Assembly: GCA_024180945.1 (NCBI GenBank)
Contig: JAKSGN010000006.1
Span: forward strand, 248,001-312,000
Length of the DNA: 64,000 nucleotides
From: Macrophomina tecta
Taxonomy: Eukaryota; Ascomycota; Dothideomycetes; Botryosphaeriales; Botryosphaeriaceae
Direction: 5' to 3'
In this document: positions 2,429 through 10,754 of the stretch, piece by piece
Layout of the letters: each line of letters begins with the position of its first letter
How positions within the stretch are numbered: the first letter of the stretch is position 1
Position numbers and translations under genes: made by a program
Notes under the pieces: generated by a model
What the model saw: the letters and a program-made list of their open reading frames with translations, nothing else
What the model was told of the DNA's origin: nothing
Databases searched by the model: none

Positions 2429-2623
2429 GAATATCGATACCTGGGCTATATAGACCTTTGGGAACGAATGTCTTCCGTCGACTTTCACAATATCCCAGTC
2501 CAGCTAAGACGGTAATTTATTTTCAACTTAAAAAAAGTAGTGCGGCATTCTCCGGTAACGTAAGATTAGCCACAGGAAACATAAGCTCCGAAGGACTCCA
2601 AATTACCTCACCCTCCGGTGCGA
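2429..2623 (+). pseudogene. Left flank of the insertion site; ORF relic interrupted by the retroelement
   Basis: This unique 195-bp stretch ends with TGCGA, the 5-bp target site. Its open frame continues in register with the sequence after the second TGCGA (10460 onward) once the element and one target copy are ignored. The element therefore landed inside an open frame. I do not recognise the product. Confidence 0.3.
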
Positions 2624-3065
2624 TGTTACGGCGCAGCCTACACAGGACCTGGGTAAGAAGGATAAGAAGGACAAGCGGGGCGCCTACGCGCCCGCGAGAA
2701 AGATCCACCGGCAAGGAGTCACGTGACTCCCGGTTCAACTGTTCAGAGCCTTGGCACTCTGAACTCCTGAACTCGCGAAGTTCAGACGTTCAACCGCTTG
2801 GCAGAATGAACCCATGAACTATCAGATTGTATACACTCTCCCACTATTATATAAACCACACTCTTTAGATAGCTTTGACCTTCGTGGTCAACTTCAATAA
2901 CAATTCGCACATTGTTAGTAACACGGCCTTCGCACGCAGTGCTCAGTCTTGTCACGTGTTCGACTTGCTCTCACCCTCTTCTTGTACCCACTCAAGGAAA
3001 TCCTTCGACAGGTTTTCTCCCTCTTCGGTGTTTGGATCCTTAGAGGCAGAGGCCCGCTCGTTACA
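2624..3065 (+). repeat. 5' LTR of the chromovirus
   Basis: 442 bp, TGTTACGG...CGTTACA. Contains a TATATAAA box at 2848-2855 and a small inverted repeat at 2873-2891 (TTGACC / GGTCAA arms). No difference from the 3' LTR was seen when read side by side. Confidence 0.97.
2848..2855 (+). promoter_or_regulatory. TATA box of the retroelement promoter
   Basis: TATATAAA in the 5' LTR predicts a transcript start near 2878-2885. That is where the GTGGTCAA sequence complementary to the primer-binding region begins (2884). Confidence 0.6.
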
Positions 3066-3076: not shown

Positions 3077-3156
3077 ATCCTTGCAAGGAGAGGAAGGTTC
3101 CGAGATCAAGTCTCATCGGGTAAGGTATCACCCCCTAACGAGTTTAGGAAACAGCA

Positions 3157-4995
3157 ATGGCACCAGGATCTCAGATGGAGGTCGACCCGGTCGAGGGTCA
3201 GGTTCAGGGTGCCCAGGGGCCAGCTCAGCCCACACAGCAAACGGAGCCCACCAGAGCTGAGCTCTTGCAGCTCATCGAGGAGCTGAAGGCTCAGAACGCT
3301 CGACTGATCGAGCATACGACAAAGCGGAGCGCTACTAAGGTTAAAGTAGCGGCACCCGAGAAGTTCGATGGGGACAGGAAGAAGCTTCAATCCTTCCTCC
3401 TCCAGATGCAACGCTACCTCCAGTTCAATCAAGCGCAATTCGACAGCGACGCCGAGGAAGTACTCTTCGCATCGACCTACCTCAGAGGAACGGCAGAGGC
3501 ATGGATGGAACCATACCTTCGCGACCACCTAGCCAACGAACACTCTCTCGAGAAGAGACGAGAAAAGACCAAGGAAATCTTCGGCACCTATACGGGATTC
3601 GCAGACAACCTTAGGGCCACTTTCAACGATCGAGATGAAGTCCGCAAAGCCTCCAACGATATCATGACCGTTAAACAATTGGGATCTGTAGCTGTCTACG
3701 CAACCAAGTTTCAACAGCTTGCAGCCTACCTCGAATGGTCAGACGAGACTTTCCGCGACCTCTTCTACAAAGGCCTGAAGGAAGAAGTCAAGAAGAACAT
3801 GATTACCCACGAATACCCGGCCACCTTTCAAAAGATGGTAGACCTTGCGTCTCAGATCGACGGTCGCATGTACGAATGGAAAATGGGTTCCCGACAAGCC
3901 AACACCTCGAAACCTCGCCGTGAAAGAACAACCCTCGAAGGCGGAGACGCTATGGCCCTCGACGCGGCCAACAGACAGGACTCCAAGAAGGGCAACAACA
4001 ACGGTCGAAACAAGAAGCCCAAAGGACCTAACCCGAACTGGACGGACGAGCAAAAACAGCGCTACAAGGATCGACTCTGCATCACCTGCGGAAGTGACAA
4101 GCACTTCTCTCCTAAGTGCCCGCAGAACCCTCGCAACAAGAAGGATGGAAAGCAGACCTCGAGCGCTCAACGCGAAGCATCGGTTGCATCCCGTCAAGAC
4201 AATCACGATATGCTGCACTGGACAGCCTGCTACAACGATGACTGTCAGACGCACCAAAGCAGCAAGGACATATCGGGATGGTACCCCCACGAACCGCGAC
4301 AATTCGGTATGATGACTAGGAACGAGGAAGTCATCGAGACCGACGATATTATCGACAGTTTCCCCTTGGACGAAGAACTGGTCAACAGCGAAACAGGAGA
4401 ACTCTACGAGAGCACGACCGAAAGCGGCGATAGCGTACGGTCAGGGGACCCTCCGATGCTGTCCGATAAATGGGATACCCTCATCTCATTGGAAGTTCTT
4501 GCCGAAAGATACGGCATTAGCAAGCACTTACATGACGAATGGGGCAACCTCAGGACCATCTGGATTCCGCATCAAAGAAGCCTTGCCTTGACAGTCCTCT
4601 GGGAATGGCGCCAGAATACTCTTTGGGAAATCCGGATCGAACAAAACGGAAAGAAGTACGAACTCCCAGTAACTAAGAATACGACACTTGTCGAGCGCCA
4701 CCACCAAGGAACCTCTGCGCGCGAACAGGCAGACTACGACTCCCTCCGAGAGTTAGCGAGGATTCTTTGTCGGCACGGTACGGCAACCATCCAGAATCGC
4801 ACACTCCAGTGGATACCGGACGAGAAACTCAACATGCCGACTTTCCGATACCAGGTGCGAAGGGATATAGTCTACCAGCGGAAACAGTTGCGTGCCAATA
4901 AATGGACCAACTGGAAACAAGCATACCTTCAAGTCAACGAATGGGAAGACTACATGCACAGCGAAGTCTACGGCTATCCGAAGCCAAAAAACTAG
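3157..4995 (+). CDS. gag: Gag polyprotein of the chromovirus
   Basis: 612 aa. The start ATG has a good context (AGCAATGGC) and is the first in the long frame. An N-terminal leader is followed by the retrotransposon capsid region (about residues 60-245, with FDGDRKKLQSFL and AYLEWSDETFRDLFYKGL segments), a basic linker, and one CX2CX4HX4C zinc knuckle at about residues 308-321. It forms the particle and binds element RNA. The ~290 residues after the knuckle are unusually long for a gag C-terminus and have no recognisable domain. The frame ends at TAG 4993-4995, directly after a slippery heptamer, so a fraction of ribosomes should continue into pol. gag and pol frames overlap by 94 nt. Confidence 0.92.
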   Translation: MAPGSQMEVDPVEGQVQGAQGPAQPTQQTEPTRAELLQLIEELKAQNARLIEHTTKRSATKVKVAAPEKFDGDRKKLQSFLLQMQRYLQFNQAQFDSDAEEVLFASTYLRGTAEAWMEPYLRDHLANEHSLEKRREKTKEIFGTYTGFADNLRATFNDRDEVRKASNDIMTVKQLGSVAVYATKFQQLAAYLEWSDETFRDLFYKGLKEEVKKNMITHEYPATFQKMVDLASQIDGRMYEWKMGSRQANTSKPRRERTTLEGGDAMALDAANRQDSKKGNNNGRNKKPKGPNPNWTDEQKQRYKDRLCITCGSDKHFSPKCPQNPRNKKDGKQTSSAQREASVASRQDNHDMLHWTACYNDDCQTHQSSKDISGWYPHEPRQFGMMTRNEEVIETDDIIDSFPLDEELVNSETGELYESTTESGDSVRSGDPPMLSDKWDTLISLEVLAERYGISKHLHDEWGNLRTIWIPHQRSLALTVLWEWRQNTLWEIRIEQNGKKYELPVTKNTTLVERHHQGTSAREQADYDSLRELARILCRHGTATIQNRTLQWIPDEKLNMPTFRYQVRRDIVYQRKQLRANKWTNWKQAYLQVNEWEDYMHSEVYGYPKPKN

Positions 4996-7900
4996 ACGGC
5001 CCTACGGCATTGGGATCGACCCAGGGGCCACAGTCTAGGTCCCTTCACATGGTATCACGCACATCGAATACGGAAATTCTCACCGGACCAAATCTTTGGA
5101 AACAATTCAAAACGAAAGGAACACTCAACGGAGTGCCCATCAGGATACTGATCGACACAGGATCAAGCGGAAACTTTATACACAACGAGTTTGTGGAACA
5201 ATGCAAGATCCTATACCGGAAGAAGAAAGAGCCATACCCACTCAGCGGATTCGACGGGAAAAGCTCAGTCTACGGAGAAGGCTGGGTAAAGATAGAAACG
5301 GAGGAAGCAACCCTCCAGATCAAGAACCATCGGGAGCAGATTTCCCTCGATGTCCAAAGGATCCCCGGGCATGACATTATTCTAGGTATGCCCTGGATCC
5401 GAACACAGAAACCTATCTTCGACTTCAGCGAAGGAGACGAAATCGTCTTTCGAGAAGAGATCGACGACCTCCTACGAAAATTCGGTTTACGCATGGAAAA
5501 CGGGTTAATGAACACCCTACAGCGACTCTTGTCTACTATGAATCGGGAAGTAGCCAGCGTAAGGCCCAAGAGCGGCAGCTGTGTAGGCGACTCCGATAGT
5601 GGTGTAAGTCAGAACCAGGACTGCGACGCAGAAGGCGAAGCCTCCTTGGTAAAATGCAACCCTATCGCAGGAATAAGCCCTACCGAGCGAAACGATACCC
5701 TCGAATCATCAAGAGAAGAGCAAGACTCAAACGATGGCGTAAGGCCCAGTGACGGCAACATCAACGGCAACCTTGAGGGAGGCCTAAGACAGGACCAGGA
5801 CTGCAGCGTGCAAGACGCCGCCTCCTCGGTAAAATGCAGCGCCTCAAGCGGAGTAAGCCCTACCGAGTCAAGTATTCCCGAAAATCAGGTACAACATTTG
5901 TCACGAAGGACCACGCGGAGAAAGCGTAAGGCCAAGAGTAAGGCTTCGCGGAAGCAATTGGCAGCCACCGAACCTCCCGTGGACGTACAGACAATCTCAA
6001 GAGAGGCATTCAGGCGTATGCGACGCCAAGGACAACAGGTCTGCCTCATGTACATCAAACCCTCACCGGCGGTGCAACAGAGAGCACTGGCCAGGGCCCA
6101 ACGGGAAAGGCCAAGGGATGAGGACTGTCCAACTCCCATCGGAGGAGACGATCCTGCGAGGATCAAGAGAGGACAACACGGTAGTTTGGAGATGTGGCAG
6201 CAACCACAAGGAACACCTCCAATCCCAGAAATGGAAACGGTACCCGACGAATATTGGGACTTAGTTGCCGTTTGCCAAGAAAGAGGAAAGGGAGACTTGC
6301 CAAAGCACCAACCGTGGGACCACGAGATTCCGCTCAAGCCAGGAACGAAACCGGCTTATAAGCCTATCTACTCCTTATCAAAGAAGGAAATGGAGGCTTT
6401 GAAGGAATACATCGAGAAGAACCTCGAACGAGGATACATTCGGCCATCGACGTCATCAGCCGGATATCCGATCCTCTTCGTCCCCAAGAAGAATGGCAAG
6501 TTACGCCTCTGTGTCGACTACCGACAACTTAACGACATCACGATCAAGAACCGATACCCGCTCCCACGCATCGACGAGCTCCAGGACAAGTTAGGGAACG
6601 CAAAGTACTTTACGAAGCTGGACCTACGGGACGGTTACCACTTGGTCAGAATCAAGGAAGGGGAAGAGTGGAAGACAGCCTTCCGCACGAGACTAGGACT
6701 ATACGAGTATACGGTTATGCCATTCGGGCTTACCAACGCACCAGCAACCTTTCAGAATCTCGTCAATGACACGCTGCGCGAATACTTGGATATCTTCTGC
6801 ATGGCTTACCTCGACGACATCCTCATCTTTTCAGACACCCTTGAGGAACACAAGAAGCATGTCAGAAAGGTCCTAGAAACGCTTCAAGCAAAGAATCTCA
6901 CTATTGCACCGGACAAGTGCTTCTGGCATACCCAGAAAGTGGAATTCTTAGGCTTTGTCATCACCCCCGGACATGTCGGTATGGACGACTCGAAACTGGA
7001 TTCCATCAGAGAATGGCCAGTACCGAAGACGATCAAGGAAGTACAGTCCTTCCTTGGGTTCGCGAATTTCTACAGGAAGTTCATCTGGAACTATTCAAAG
7101 GTCACGGAACCTTTAACGCGACTCACTCAGAAGGAGCATGGCTTCCAATGGGGAGACGATCAGCAGCAAGCCTTCGATTCGCTGAAACGGATGTTTTGCG
7201 AAGCACCCGTCTTAGGGATATACGATCCCGACAAACCAATCGAAGTAGAAACTGACGCGTCAGGATTCGCCCTAGGAGCATGTCTCAGCCAGCCTGACGA
7301 TGAAGGCAGATGGCATCCGATCGCGTTCTACTCAAGAAAGTTCACCCCAGCAGAGCTCAACTACGACACTCATGACAAGGAGCTCTTGGCTATCGTCTCA
7401 GCATTCAAGCACTGGAGACACTACCTAGAAGGAACCGACCAACAGGTGATAGTGCATTGTGACCATCAGAATCTCACGCGCTTCACCACGACCAAGGAGC
7501 TGAACCGACGACAAGTTCGCTGGTCACAAGAATTGGCATCCTACAATTTCAAGATCACACACAGAAAAGGTGTAGATAACGCCGCCGCTGACGCGCTCAG
7601 CAGAAGGGTAGACTACATGGAAGGAAGAATCGAGCCGCAACCTGCAGTACTGCAGTGGACAAGCGATGGATCGCTCACCCTTGCCAGACAGTCTTTCCCA
7701 ATGCTTCGCATCGAGTCAAACCCGTGGCATCAGAAGATCCGAGAAGCATACGCTCAGGACTCCTTCGCGCAGGAACTTTTAGCGCTTGAGGACGACCCGC
7801 GTGTTGCTCGAGATAGAGAAGGAACGCTTCTCTTCAAAGGGTTAATCTATGTCCCGACAAGACTGCGAGAAGCACTCGTTAAAGACATGCACGTAGCACC

Positions 7901-10211
7901 CGCGCATGGACATCAGGGCATCGACAGGACAACCGAGAGGATCACGCAAAACTTCTACTTTCCGGGATTACGAAAGACGGTCCAGCGTATAGTCTCGCAA
8001 TGCGACCTTTGCATCCGGAGCAAAGCCGCGACACACGCTCCGTACGGACATTTACAACCCCTGGAAGTACCAGAACGACCATGGCAATGGGTCACGCTAG
8101 ACTTCATCACAAAGCTACCAAGGTCTAGGGACCCGCTCACAGAAGTCAAGTTCGACTCGATCCTAGTCTTTGTCGACAGACTCACGAAGTACGCCTACTT
8201 CTTGCCCTACCTAGAGGCATCGAATGCAGAACAGCTAGCCCACACGTTTCTCCGATACATCTTCGCGGATCACGGAATGCCGGAAGTATTGGTTTCGGAC
8301 AGGGACAAGCTGATGAGATCAGAATTTTGGCAAACGCTTATGCGCCAGCTTGGAGCAAAGAACAAACTCTCTACAACGGCACACGCGCAAACCGACGGCC
8401 AGACAGAACGGATGAACCGGACTCTCGAACAGTATCTTCGCTGTTACATCAACTACCCACAGGATGACTGGGCCACATGGCTACCCATGGCACAATTCGC
8501 CTATAACAGCGCCAAACAAGAGTCAACCAACGTATCCCCGTTCTTTGCCAACTATGGGTTTGAACCAGACGCGTATAGAGAGGCCATCCCAAGCAGAAAA
8601 TTGGCCCAGAAAGGCGTTCTCAAGGCCGAGCAGCTAAGGGGATTGCACAAAGCCATCAGTCTCGACCTCGAATATGTACGAATTATGATGTCCAAATACT
8701 ACAACAGACGGCACCAGGCGGCACCGAACCTTAAAAGGGGGGATAAAGTGTACCTCCTCACGAAAAACATCAAATCAAAACGACCGAGCGACAAATTGGA
8801 TTTCAAGAAAATCGGTCCATTCGAAATTGCAGAAAAACTCGGAGAAGTCACGTATCGACTCAAATTGCCTAACACACGGATGAACTCCACCTTTCACGTG
8901 GCAATGCTCGAGCCAGCACCAGAAAACGCCACCATTCCGGAAACTCAGGAAGAAATTATACCAGAAAACCCTGACGCCGAAGAAGACCAGTACCCAGTCG
9001 AGAAGATCCTAGACTGCAAGCGGTTCGGTCGTCAGCTCAAATATCTCGTCAAATGGGAAGGTTACGGGAATGAAGACAACCAGTGGGTGCCAAAGGACGA
9101 CATACACTCAGACCTTGTCACGGAGTTCCATCGCCAGAACCCTGACCTCCCGCGGAAACGAGGCCGTCCTCGAACGAGAACGACGGAAGGCCCTCGAGAG
9201 TCGCAACATCCCACACCAGGGACGACGACCGGCGAACAGAATCCACAGGTCCAGGAGAACGCGGGGACCACGCACCAGCCACAGGCTCGCCGGCAGAATC
9301 GGCAAACCCAGCCTCCCGCGGCGCAGCAGGATCCACCGACTCGTGACGTGGCCGTTTTGACGCGGACGGACCCCCGGAATTCTCAGGGTCAGACGGCTCC
9401 CCAGCCGCCAGCTGCTCCAACAGCCTCTGATCCTTCATCTCCAGAGCCGCGACATCCTCCGAAGAAAGTTCGCGATCAAGAATGGAGAAACCACGATCCT
9501 CCAGCAACTTCTGCTGTTTCCGAAGGCGTACTAGCTTCGAGGAAGAAGCGCGAAGGCGAGATTGTAACCTCTCCAACGCCTCCGAGGCCTCCTGGAAATC
9601 ACGATAAGCAGCCTCCTCCTCAGAACGGATCCGCTCTTGTTGGCGACGCAAACGATTCACTGTTAGGACGTCAGCAAGGAAAAGAACAAAAAAAACGAAT
9701 CCTTACTAGTGGACACGGAAACCCTCTGAGCGTCACACATGGTATAACCACGAGCCGCACACTCTCCACAACGGGACGAACGAGGACCAATCCTACAGAC
9801 ACGCCCGTTAGCGGAACAATCGAAACAAGCACGCGTGACCGGAGCAAAGGAATTGATCGCGGTCGACAACTCAGCGCGATAAGCCGACTCGTCGCGAGAA
9901 CGTTTCACGCCAGCCATGACGAAGGAAACTTACGGGAGAAAGAGGAATCACAGCAGCAGACGAATTATAGCCTTTACGGAGAATCTTCGGGCCGAAGATC
10001 CTTAAAGGGGGGGATAGTGTTACGGCGCAGCCTACACAGGACCTGGGTAAGAAGGATAAGAAGGACAAGCGGGGCGCCTACGCGCCCGCGAGAAAGATCC
10101 ACCGGCAAGGAGTCACGTGACTCCCGGTTCAACTGTTCAGAGCCTTGGCACTCTGAACTCCTGAACTCGCGAAGTTCAGACGTTCAACCGCTTGGCAGAA
10201 TGAACCCATGA
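4902..10211 (+). CDS. pol: Pol polyprotein: protease, RT, RNase H, integrase, chromodomain
   Basis: This frame is open from 4902 and lies -1 to gag. It is expected to be entered by frameshifting at about 4992, giving a gag-pol fusion. Seen in order (residues from 4902): aspartic protease DTGSS at 85; reverse transcriptase with FVPKKNGKLRLCVDYR, MPFGLTNAP and catalytic YLDD at 636-639; RNase H with TDAS; HHCC integrase zinc finger; DDE integrase core (TLDF, VSDRD, QTDGQTERMNRTLE); a GPF module; and a chromodomain at about 1365-1420 with VKWEGY and cage-type aromatics. All key residues are present. After the chromodomain the frame stays open a further ~350 residues, proline/arginine-rich and apparently disordered, ending 194 nt inside the 3' LTR. 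That tail lies opposite the antisense gene, and the true end of functional Pol may be earlier. Confidence 0.93.
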   Translation: MDQLETSIPSSQRMGRLHAQRSLRLSEAKKLDGPTALGSTQGPQSRSLHMVSRTSNTEILTGPNLWKQFKTKGTLNGVPIRILIDTGSSGNFIHNEFVEQCKILYRKKKEPYPLSGFDGKSSVYGEGWVKIETEEATLQIKNHREQISLDVQRIPGHDIILGMPWIRTQKPIFDFSEGDEIVFREEIDDLLRKFGLRMENGLMNTLQRLLSTMNREVASVRPKSGSCVGDSDSGVSQNQDCDAEGEASLVKCNPIAGISPTERNDTLESSREEQDSNDGVRPSDGNINGNLEGGLRQDQDCSVQDAASSVKCSASSGVSPTESSIPENQVQHLSRRTTRRKRKAKSKASRKQLAATEPPVDVQTISREAFRRMRRQGQQVCLMYIKPSPAVQQRALARAQRERPRDEDCPTPIGGDDPARIKRGQHGSLEMWQQPQGTPPIPEMETVPDEYWDLVAVCQERGKGDLPKHQPWDHEIPLKPGTKPAYKPIYSLSKKEMEALKEYIEKNLERGYIRPSTSSAGYPILFVPKKNGKLRLCVDYRQLNDITIKNRYPLPRIDELQDKLGNAKYFTKLDLRDGYHLVRIKEGEEWKTAFRTRLGLYEYTVMPFGLTNAPATFQNLVNDTLREYLDIFCMAYLDDILIFSDTLEEHKKHVRKVLETLQAKNLTIAPDKCFWHTQKVEFLGFVITPGHVGMDDSKLDSIREWPVPKTIKEVQSFLGFANFYRKFIWNYSKVTEPLTRLTQKEHGFQWGDDQQQAFDSLKRMFCEAPVLGIYDPDKPIEVETDASGFALGACLSQPDDEGRWHPIAFYSRKFTPAELNYDTHDKELLAIVSAFKHWRHYLEGTDQQVIVHCDHQNLTRFTTTKELNRRQVRWSQELASYNFKITHRKGVDNAAADALSRRVDYMEGRIEPQPAVLQWTSDGSLTLARQSFPMLRIESNPWHQKIREAYAQDSFAQELLALEDDPRVARDREGTLLFKGLIYVPTRLREALVKDMHVAPAHGHQGIDRTTERITQNFYFPGLRKTVQRIVSQCDLCIRSKAATHAPYGHLQPLEVPERPWQWVTLDFITKLPRSRDPLTEVKFDSILVFVDRLTKYAYFLPYLEASNAEQLAHTFLRYIFADHGMPEVLVSDRDKLMRSEFWQTLMRQLGAKNKLSTTAHAQTDGQTERMNRTLEQYLRCYINYPQDDWATWLPMAQFAYNSAKQESTNVSPFFANYGFEPDAYREAIPSRKLAQKGVLKAEQLRGLHKAISLDLEYVRIMMSKYYNRRHQAAPNLKRGDKVYLLTKNIKSKRPSDKLDFKKIGPFEIAEKLGEVTYRLKLPNTRMNSTFHVAMLEPAPENATIPETQEEIIPENPDAEEDQYPVEKILDCKRFGRQLKYLVKWEGYGNEDNQWVPKDDIHSDLVTEFHRQNPDLPRKRGRPRTRTTEGPRESQHPTPGTTTGEQNPQVQENAGTTHQPQARRQNRQTQPPAAQQDPPTRDVAVLTRTDPRNSQGQTAPQPPAAPTASDPSSPEPRHPPKKVRDQEWRNHDPPATSAVSEGVLASRKKREGEIVTSPTPPRPPGNHDKQPPPQNGSALVGDANDSLLGRQQGKEQKKRILTSGHGNPLSVTHGITTSRTLSTTGRTRTNPTDTPVSGTIETSTRDRSKGIDRGRQLSAISRLVARTFHASHDEGNLREKEESQQQTNYSLYGESSGRRSLKGGIVLRRSLHRTWVRRIRRTSGAPTRPRERSTGKESRDSRFNCSEPWHSELLNSRSSDVQPLGRMNP
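4986..5038 (+). promoter_or_regulatory. -1 programmed ribosomal frameshift site with downstream stem
   Basis: A AAA AAC at 4986-4992 is in register with the gag frame (codons AAA, AAC) and directly precedes the gag stop TAG. After a 5-nt spacer, GGCCC (4998-5002) pairs with GGGCC (5025-5029). An outer CTAGAC (4992-4997) can pair with GTCTAG (5033-5038), and the loop contains TGGG/CCCA. Heptamer type, register and spacing match known -1 sites. The stem is by eye. Confidence 0.8.
9118..9917 (-). CDS. Antisense spliced accessory gene: Zn(II)2Cys6-like cysteine cluster plus coiled coil
   Basis: Model: complement of join(9118-9659, 9707-9917), 250 aa. The ATG at 9917-9915 has G at +4. Intron 9706-9660 (47 nt) has GTAAGG donor, CTGAC branch-like motif, pyrimidine-rich middle and ACAG acceptor, and splicing joins two open frames exactly. 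Residues 31-61 have cysteines spaced CX2CX6CX8CX2CX7C, inside the fungal Zn2Cys6 (Gal4-type) pattern. However the stretch between cysteines 2 and 3 has one arginine rather than the usual basic run, so DNA binding is uncertain. A charged coiled coil follows at about 71-128, then an acidic and Ser/Pro-rich tail with a KRPRH nuclear-signal-like patch. The gene overlaps the end of the pol chromodomain and the pol tail on the other strand. A TATAATT-like sequence lies about 50 nt upstream. Function unknown. Confidence 0.6.
10004..10017 (+). other. Polypurine tract
   Basis: AAAGGGGGGGATAG abuts the 3' LTR start at 10018, the expected plus-strand primer position for an LTR retrotransposon. Confidence 0.85.
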
Positions 10212-10459
10212 ACTATCAGATTGTATACACTCTCCCACTATTATATAAACCACACTCTTTAGATAGCTTTGACCTTCGTGGTCAACTTCAATAACAATTC
10301 GCACATTGTTAGTAACACGGCCTTCGCACGCAGTGCTCAGTCTTGTCACGTGTTCGACTTGCTCTCACCCTCTTCTTGTACCCACTCAAGGAAATCCTTC
10401 GACAGGTTTTCTCCCTCTTCGGTGTTTGGATCCTTAGAGGCAGAGGCCCGCTCGTTACA
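10018..10459 (+). repeat. 3' LTR of the chromovirus
   Basis: Same 442 bp as the 5' LTR, followed by the TGCGA target duplication at 10460-10464. The open pol frame ends inside it at 10211. Confidence 0.97.
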
Positions 10460-10464
10460 TGCGA

Positions 10465-10754
10465 TCCACACGACTTGTTACGCGGAAATGTCCAGAAAGT
10501 GGGGTTCTGAACCGAGCTTACCCGTGGAACAACTTGTTGAGCGTCCAGTGCAGCTGATGTTCAAGATAAGAGCTAAGGGGAACGAAAGAGCAATTGGCTG
10601 GCTCGGTATGGCTGTGGCAGCGCTCGCTTTTCATTTCGTGCTCCACAAGCGAAGGAAGGCTTGGAGGGAGGAGCAACCCTATGCTCCTCGTATCGAGTGT
10701 GCCGAAGAGTTGGCACGTCCTGCAGCTCGTCACATTTTTGAGATGGATAGGTAG
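10465..10754 (+). pseudogene. Right part of the ORF interrupted by the retroelement
   Basis: The open frame after the target duplication continues the frame seen at 2429-2623. It encodes ~95 residues with one hydrophobic segment (AIGWLGMAVAALAFHFVL) followed by a basic HKRRK, a plausible single TM helix, and ends at TAG 10752-10754. A further open stretch runs at 10872-11288 without a convincing intron linking them. I recognise no family. Confidence 0.25.

Follow-up and report, generated by a model that had tools for sequence, protein, structure and literature searches.

What might a gene read from the opposite strand do for a long terminal repeat (LTR) retrotransposon? Antisense genes in LTR elements are already known. 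According to the accessible portions of the published accounts, on which our comparisons with described systems rest throughout, the plant elements Retand, Grande, and RIRE2 carry an antisense open reading frame between pol and the 3′ LTR, and DNA binding and a regulatory role have been suggested for the TRP28 of Retand proteins (PMC11963269). Boty-like Ty3/gypsy elements of Botrytis cinerea possess an additional antisense gene, brtn (PMC8365987, citing Zhao et al. 2011, Virology). Here we describe an antisense gene in a chromovirus of the fungus Macrophomina tecta (assembly GCA_024180945.1; 54.1 Mb, 37 contigs), located in a 64,000-nucleotide stretch of contig JAKSGN010000006.1 (forward-strand positions 248,001 to 312,000), which we call the window and whose own numbering is used below. 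The gene encodes a small protein with a six-cysteine (Cys6) cluster, and it switches type together with the U3 (unique 3′) region of the LTR, which is what is new here. We consider it probable that the protein is a self-targeting, element-borne transcription factor, and that the factor and its own U3 operators are exchanged as one cassette.

How does this locus compare with the described systems? The earlier note on this DNA had thought an antisense gene of this kind unusual for a fungal retroelement, a view weakened by brtn, which is already in print. Like brtn, the gene is an extra antisense gene in a fungal LTR element, but the accessible account of brtn describes no link to U3. Retand likewise has its antisense frame next to the 3′ LTR; unlike the present element, it encodes TRP28 (PF04195), belongs to a non-chromovirus lineage, and has no described pairing with U3 in the accessible text, and PF04195 was not among the Pfam families found at E ≤ 1 for the element and antisense proteins. 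The HBZ and APH proteins of deltaretroviruses are antisense, spliced, 3′ LTR-driven factors that act on their own LTR (PMC10186651), and a spliced antisense transcript is predicted here. However, HBZ is a basic leucine zipper (bZIP) rather than a Cys6 protein, works through CREB-2, and comes with no family-private operator cassette in the accessible description (PMC10186651); no Pfam bZIP match was found at E ≤ 1 for the element and antisense proteins. VANC of the VANDAL transposons recognizes short family-specific motifs repeated in its own non-coding DNA (PMC5735166), and nearly family-specific motif arrays are present in the non-coding DNA of all eight U3s analyzed here, which the antisense protein would bind in a similar manner. 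Unlike our element, VANDALs are unrelated DNA transposons without LTRs, and anti-silencing by VANC has been demonstrated experimentally (PMC5735166). The crapaud element of Podospora is also a chromodomain LTR element, and its subfamilies differ in U3 upstream of the TATA box, with the interior mostly alike; the word "antisense" is absent from its main text as accessible, and the cause of the U3 diversity is left open there, escape from repeat-induced point mutation (RIP) not being the explanation (PMC10787394). Diversification limited to U3 is also known in Tnt1 (PMC1838419). In the literature searched, to which subscription papers may add, we found neither a Cys6 or zinc-cluster antisense gene paired with U3 nor an antisense factor that changes type together with U3, and the accessible part of a survey of fungal LTR elements (PMC3248453) describes no such gene.

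The gene begins at a minus-strand ATG at position 9917 and consists of two exons and a stop codon, giving a predicted protein of 250 amino acids (Table 1). The joining of the two frames by a 47-nucleotide intron, the protein length, and the cysteine spacing given in the earlier note were reproduced to the last number, with cysteines at residues 31, 34, 41, 50, 53, and 61 (spacings 2, 6, 8, 2, 7). The basic patch of exon 2 is likely a nuclear localization signal, and the C-terminal tail is a candidate activation domain: in 16 of 16 proteins the last 40 residues contain 5-9 acidic (D/E) versus 0-2 basic (K/R) residues. By inspection, TATA-like boxes (TATAATT or TATATC) lie about 50-60 nucleotides before the antisense ATG in six of the families introduced below (A, D, E, M, N, and Q); B, C, and H show just CTATTTC there. 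A splice-donor-like GTAAGT also precedes the ATG, at 9928-9933 in the window, 5-10 nucleotides upstream; it is exact in A, B, C, E, H, and M (6/9), and reads GTAGGT in D, GTAAGC in N, and GTAAAT in Q. It is possibly an alternative 5′ donor or a core-promoter motif.

Searching the Macrophomina assembly for the antisense gene returned at least 150 matches, and 50 loci, representing 45 distinct places, were fetched. All 50 have the gene opposite a chromodomain match, in the accessory-gene placement opposite the end of pol and next to the 3′ LTR, a position that the earlier note had proposed to test in other copies. The matches listed included at least 13 copies of the window family that are nearly identical, several diverged families whose frames are open, and many copies interrupted by TAG or TAA stops of the kind that RIP would leave, to which we would attribute them. 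Nine families have open exons: A (the window), B (L045), C (L039), D (L034), E (L042), H (L031), M (L035), N (L037), and Q (L051). In each, six cysteines lie in exon 1, and an intron of 46-49 nucleotides, in phase 1 and at the same place, separates it from exon 2. For each family the junction was selected from mechanical GT-AG options on the basis of homology and of the donor and branch-site sequences; H has a non-canonical donor, GTCTGT. Relatives were found in Botryosphaeria, Aplosporella, and Thermoascus, and the closest named proteins come from Macrophomina and Botryosphaeria. The gene model of P0005 (Botryosphaeria dothidea), which begins after the cysteine cluster, has the B/C junction, and that of P0013 (Thermoascus crustaceus) a junction like that of N, both being annotations rather than transcripts.

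The families are mosaics. An identity scan of A-E in 120-column steps, over ten pairs, gave 89-100% identity in pol (7738-9057) for all ten pairs, 34-67% at 9402-9923 and 10031-10238 in nine of them, and again 88-99% in all ten at 10239-10475 (R/U5). The step between the two variable blocks, which holds the polypurine tract (PPT) and the LTR start, reaches 69-75% in the same nine of the ten pairs; taken alone, the PPT/LTR-start island of A matches those of B-E at 84-97% identity. B-C is the exceptional pair, with 73-93% across the whole cassette. The same pattern recurs in M, N, and Q, with pol at 85-99%, the gene module at 49-74%, the LTR start at 91-95%, U3 at 58-75%, and R/U5 at 84-95%. Family C appears to record an exchange. 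It is 98% identical to D at 9058-9297, falling to 34-58% across the gene module (9402-9923); its exon 1 shares 66 of 69 residues with B, its U3 is 89% like B and 55% like D, and the C-terminal part of its protein is D-like (dS 0.04). C thus carries a B-type cassette on a D-like C-terminal end. Across the 52 loci scanned, module type equaled U3 type in all 47 with a U3 score above 100, a threshold chosen after the scores were known and below which L028, L031, L032, L033, and L043 fall; nine of the 47 are the reference places, four are duplicate fetches, and the other 34 include many copies of one family. H was excluded from the U3 tests, as no U3 resembling the others was present there.

Is the antisense frame itself under selection? 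Ratios of nonsynonymous to synonymous substitution (dN/dS) were calculated by the Nei-Gojobori method (NG86) for five close pairs, B-C, B-H, C-H, D-E, and M-N, which share ancestry and in some of which dS is near saturation. In this order they were 0.04, 0.16, 0.18, 0.14, and 0.14 for exon 1, and 0.09, 0.15, 0.10, 0.23, and 0.56 for the coil, and in all ten exon 1 and coil comparisons none of the other five frames had a dN/dS as low as that of the antisense frame. Substitutions in exon 1 plus coil were in excess at the third antisense codon position, with first/second/third counts of 14/8/54 for B-C (p=2e-11) and 44/22/68, 40/23/76, 51/39/79, and 54/36/79 for the other four pairs, the weakest being D-E (p=6e-4). 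The dN/dS comparison called for in the earlier note therefore found purifying selection in exon 1 and the coil of sister-family pairs. The 13 near-identical window-family copies gave no selection signal, A is too far from the other families for its pairs to give a clear result, and the nearest diverged relatives of A (L014-L018, L022-L025) carry RIP-type stops, so that the constraint is demonstrated for the sister families and not for A. A chance open frame opposite the GC-rich tail of pol would have been conceivable, since the strand opposite coding DNA often stays open and the sense frame is open here too. The antisense-frame dN/dS and the third-position excess rule it out, and with a conserved intron, invariant cysteines, and annotated relatives in other genera also against it, we give it practically no credence. 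The antisense accessory gene is genuine, as nine families, a conserved intron, and selection on the antisense frame in sister families attest.

The sense pol frame stays open for about 1.05-1.09 kb beyond the antisense stop into U3 in families A-E (9118-10211 in the window). Given the antisense protein, an open sense frame across exon 2 is no more than mildly unlikely (P 0.02-0.13 over eight families, of which H has one stop). The sense frame has a dN/dS of 1.5-3.6 in the coil across the five pairs, so the pol tail is not conserved as a protein there, and we rejected it as a true coding frame across the module.

The U3s contain repeats that are nearly specific to each family. In A, two operator-like dyads of identical layout lie in each LTR, and the full pattern has four matches in the window, where none is expected (100 shuffles); a shorter form derived from A has 174 matches in the genome, counted irrespective of LTR context, and none when read backwards. 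Repeated 6-mers on either strand exceed shuffled sequence in eight of eight U3s (0-7 of 500 shuffles), the lowest of 25 pol control windows having P=0.025. The near-private motifs are CTGAAC/AGTTCA in A, CTGATC and CTGAGC in B/C, GAGCCC in D, GGCGAC in E, and CACGGG/CCCGCA in M/N/Q, with single stray matches of some in other families. Every U3 has a tandem-like unit, of 47 bp in A, B, and C, 36 in D, 35 in E, and 61-68 in M/N/Q (0-5 of 400 shuffles). Mirrored tetrads of half-sites, sought with a test devised after the layout in A was known, were reached in A-E by 0, 0, 0, 1, and 4 of 300 shuffles, and a plain best-dyad test gave 1, 0, 2, and 0 of 400 shuffles in B-E. In seven diverged copies related to A (A′), the half-sites were kept at 40 of 40 positions versus 57 of 64 for the spacers (purine/pyrimidine code, one lineage, p=0.04); for this comparison L028 was aligned to the A-type U3, and L016, with a U3 identical to that of the window, was left uncounted. 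U3 lies behind the antisense TATA-like boxes, and in A-E the sense TATA box is on its other side, so that the repeats of the 3′ LTR U3 stand between two divergent promoters. A CACGTG box is also present in the U3s of A-E (1, 1, 1, 2, and 2 matches) and absent in M, N, and Q; it is a possible site for a host basic helix-loop-helix protein.

How might such a cassette function? The protein would be a small transcription factor in which a Cys6 cluster binds DNA, a coiled coil mediates dimerization, a nuclear signal directs import, and the acidic/aromatic tail activates transcription. Its promoter would lie between the gene and the polypurine tract and direct leftward expression, the U3 of the 3′ LTR serving as upstream control region. 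By binding the family-private half-site arrays in U3, the protein would control both the antisense gene and the genomic RNA promoter in copies of its own family, self-activation being the most likely outcome. With recognition private in this way, the U3 operators and the DNA-binding half of the protein would move together as one cassette on a shared backbone. The divergent promoters and the protein layout suggest that the factor acts on its own U3, binding there and driving transcription to either side, and a regulator of the element, as proposed in the earlier note, is what we infer to be the most likely role. Activation is preferred over repression because of the acidic tail. The same protein and operators could instead silence their own family and exclude incoming elements of that type, as the immunity region does in a temperate phage; the private U3 repeats and cassette exchange would fit an incompatibility system, and HBZ, an antisense factor of human T-cell leukemia virus type 1 (HTLV-1), reduces expression from the 5′ LTR (PMC10186651, accessible portion). 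However, the conserved acidic/aromatic tail resembles an activation domain, and the dyads of A lie 29-115 bp upstream of the sense TATA box without overlapping it, and we regard a repressor as unlikely.

Several results weigh against a self-targeting factor exchanged with its operators. No antisense protein exceeded the Pfam Zn_clus cut-off (best E 0.75, in one of eight family members), a profile of exon 1 aligned to ten host Zn_clus domains with 34% and 16% probability and with an offset, and the AlphaFold model of the window exon 1 was poor (predicted local distance difference test, pLDDT, 56) and was not used. The coil ratio of the M-N pair is the highest of the five, and clear antisense constraint was not found in the C-terminal third, which overlaps pol: antisense dN/dS there is 1.16, 0.93, 0.56, 0.28, and 0.39 for the five pairs in the above order and 0.98 for A-B, and the pol frame is below the antisense frame in three of five pairs. 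The U3s of M, N, and Q contain tandem repeats without forming a mirrored tetrad, the observed score being reached by 208, 218, and 300 of 300 shuffles. The best-dyad test did not reach significance in A (50 of 400 shuffles) or in M, N, and Q (about half of them), and neither did the half-site comparison in L028 (p=0.12) or B-C (p=0.20). Finally, module and U3 adjoin, and linkage alone could give joint switching. U3 would then diversify for other reasons, such as host factors or escape from silencing, with the module carried along and the protein acting elsewhere, for example against host silencing or in the particle; the U3-limited diversification of Tnt1 and crapaud offers a precedent. This we think rather improbable: the module changes as strongly as U3 while the conserved PPT/LTR-start island lies between them, the mirrored half-site sets in the U3s of A-E are significant, and the protein has a DNA-binding type of layout.

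The Cys6 cluster resembles, with differences, the Zn2Cys6 domain, in which the spacing is CX2CX6CX5-12CX2CX6-9C and basic residues between the second and third cysteines contact DNA. The earlier note's assignment to this class agrees with the spacing in A-E and H and with weak fold matches of a distant relative; it does not agree with M, N, and Q, where the loop between the second and third cysteines has 11-15 residues, nor with the Pfam cut-off. By inspection against host domains, this loop lacks the basic character of the class (SANGRV in A, ELNGTV in B). A Pfam search of the antisense proteins found no family over its cut-off, a distant relative matched Zn_clus at E 0.035, also below the cut-off, and the best match in a PDB sequence search had E 0.29. 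Exon 1 scored 21.1 against the ten host Zn_clus domains (18.8 in reverse), and the best shuffled scores were 20.2 with columns shuffled and 14.9 with cysteines fixed (30 runs each), which gives homology to host Zn_clus no real support. The predicted structure of a distant relative gave a few weak matches, to the Zn2Cys6 proteins Leu3, HAP1, and 1cld. Compared with Gal4-type factors, the antisense protein has the six-cysteine spacing (A-E, H), the following coiled coil, and basic and acidic parts, but it is small and lacks the basic loop and a Pfam match over the cut-off. The earlier note had also raised the capture of a host gene, and zinc-cluster genes are indeed numerous in this genome (at least 149 Zn_clus matches, with 150 of 323 candidates scored). 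Recent capture is nonetheless very unlikely: the gene is common to nine diverged element families and has diversified with them, every examined copy (50/50 loci) lies opposite pol, and the profile match to host domains is weak.

More tentatively, fungal chromoviruses in general might carry an exchangeable factor-operator cassette. Each lineage would then possess a transcriptional circuit private to it, much as temperate phages have their immunity regions. If true, this would account for the division of fungal LTR families, crapaud among them, into subfamilies distinguished mainly by U3. A factor that changes type in step with U3 would provide a directly testable cause of U3 diversification, namely private regulator-operator pairs, and would bring to light a family of compact DNA-binding proteins that come with naturally matched sets of operators. 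Some Botryosphaeriales gene models labeled "hypothetical" or "uncharacterized protein" (P0005, P0007, P0014, P0016) may be mobile genes of this kind. Three metagenome proteins (P0031, P0032, P0033) are built alike, with Cys6 cluster, coiled coil, and acidic tail, although their identity is low; the family may thus extend much more widely among fungi. A scan of IMG/VR with one peptide pattern yielded 63 stretches, none of them confirmed.

Table 1. Coordinates of the antisense gene, the cassette, and the surrounding element in the window
Feature	Position	Strand	Remarks
Antisense exon 1	9707..9917	-	ATG and Cys6 cluster, residues 1-70; homologous exon in nine families
Predicted intron, 47 nucleotides, phase 1	9660..9706	-	GTAAGG...CTGAC...ACAG
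Antisense exon 2	9118..9659	-	Coiled coil, KRPRHE patch, acidic/aromatic tail, stop
Cys6 cluster, residues 31-61, CX2CX6CX8CX2CX7C	9735..9827	-	Six cysteines invariant in 8/8 aligned families
KRPRHE basic patch	9340..9357	-	KRPRH or KRLRG across families, from alignment
Acidic, aromatic C-terminal tail, overlapping pol	9121..9234	-	
TATA-like box TATAATT of the antisense gene	9963..9969	-	52 nucleotides before ATG; by inspection
Exchangeable cassette: N-terminal part of antisense gene, its upstream region, U3	9400..10238		Identity scan; same pattern in M/N/Q
Variable part of U3, upstream of sense TATA box	10066..10217		
Operator-like dyad 1, GTTCA-N3-GTTCA-N14-TGAAC-N3-TGAAC	10127..10166		
Operator-like dyad 2, same layout, 47 bp further	10174..10213		
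Copy of dyad 1, 5′ LTR	2733..2772		
Copy of dyad 2, 5′ LTR	2780..2819		
5′ LTR	2624..3065	+	442 bp, 100% match to 3′ LTR
3′ LTR	10018..10459	+	442 bp, same sequence as 5′ LTR
Target-site duplication TGCGA, left copy	2619..2623		5 bp
Target-site duplication TGCGA, right copy	10460..10464		5 bp
gag open frame (stop to stop)	3148..4995	+	Retrotrans_gag, Ty3_capsid matches
pol open frame (stop to stop): protease, reverse transcriptase, RNase H, integrase, Chromo	4902..10211	+	Crosses antisense gene into U3
Sense TATA box TATATAAA, 3′ LTR	10242..10249	+	

The Pfam search identifies the window element as a Ty3/gypsy chromovirus, with gag followed by the order protease, reverse transcriptase, RNase H, integrase, and a C-terminal Chromo domain (E 4.3e-10, 39.8 bits versus a cut-off of 25.1). 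P0001, an annotated Macrophomina protein, resembles a RIP-mutated A protein in which several cysteines have become tyrosine. In L043, a family D copy, the antisense gene is interrupted by inserted sequence with an open frame, which we take to resemble the C-terminal part of a hAT transposase. To the left of the window element, a fragment at 2186-2428 is 90.6% identical to the R/U5 half of the window LTR and differs in the sequence upstream; it is an older LTR remnant, perhaps with another U3 type.

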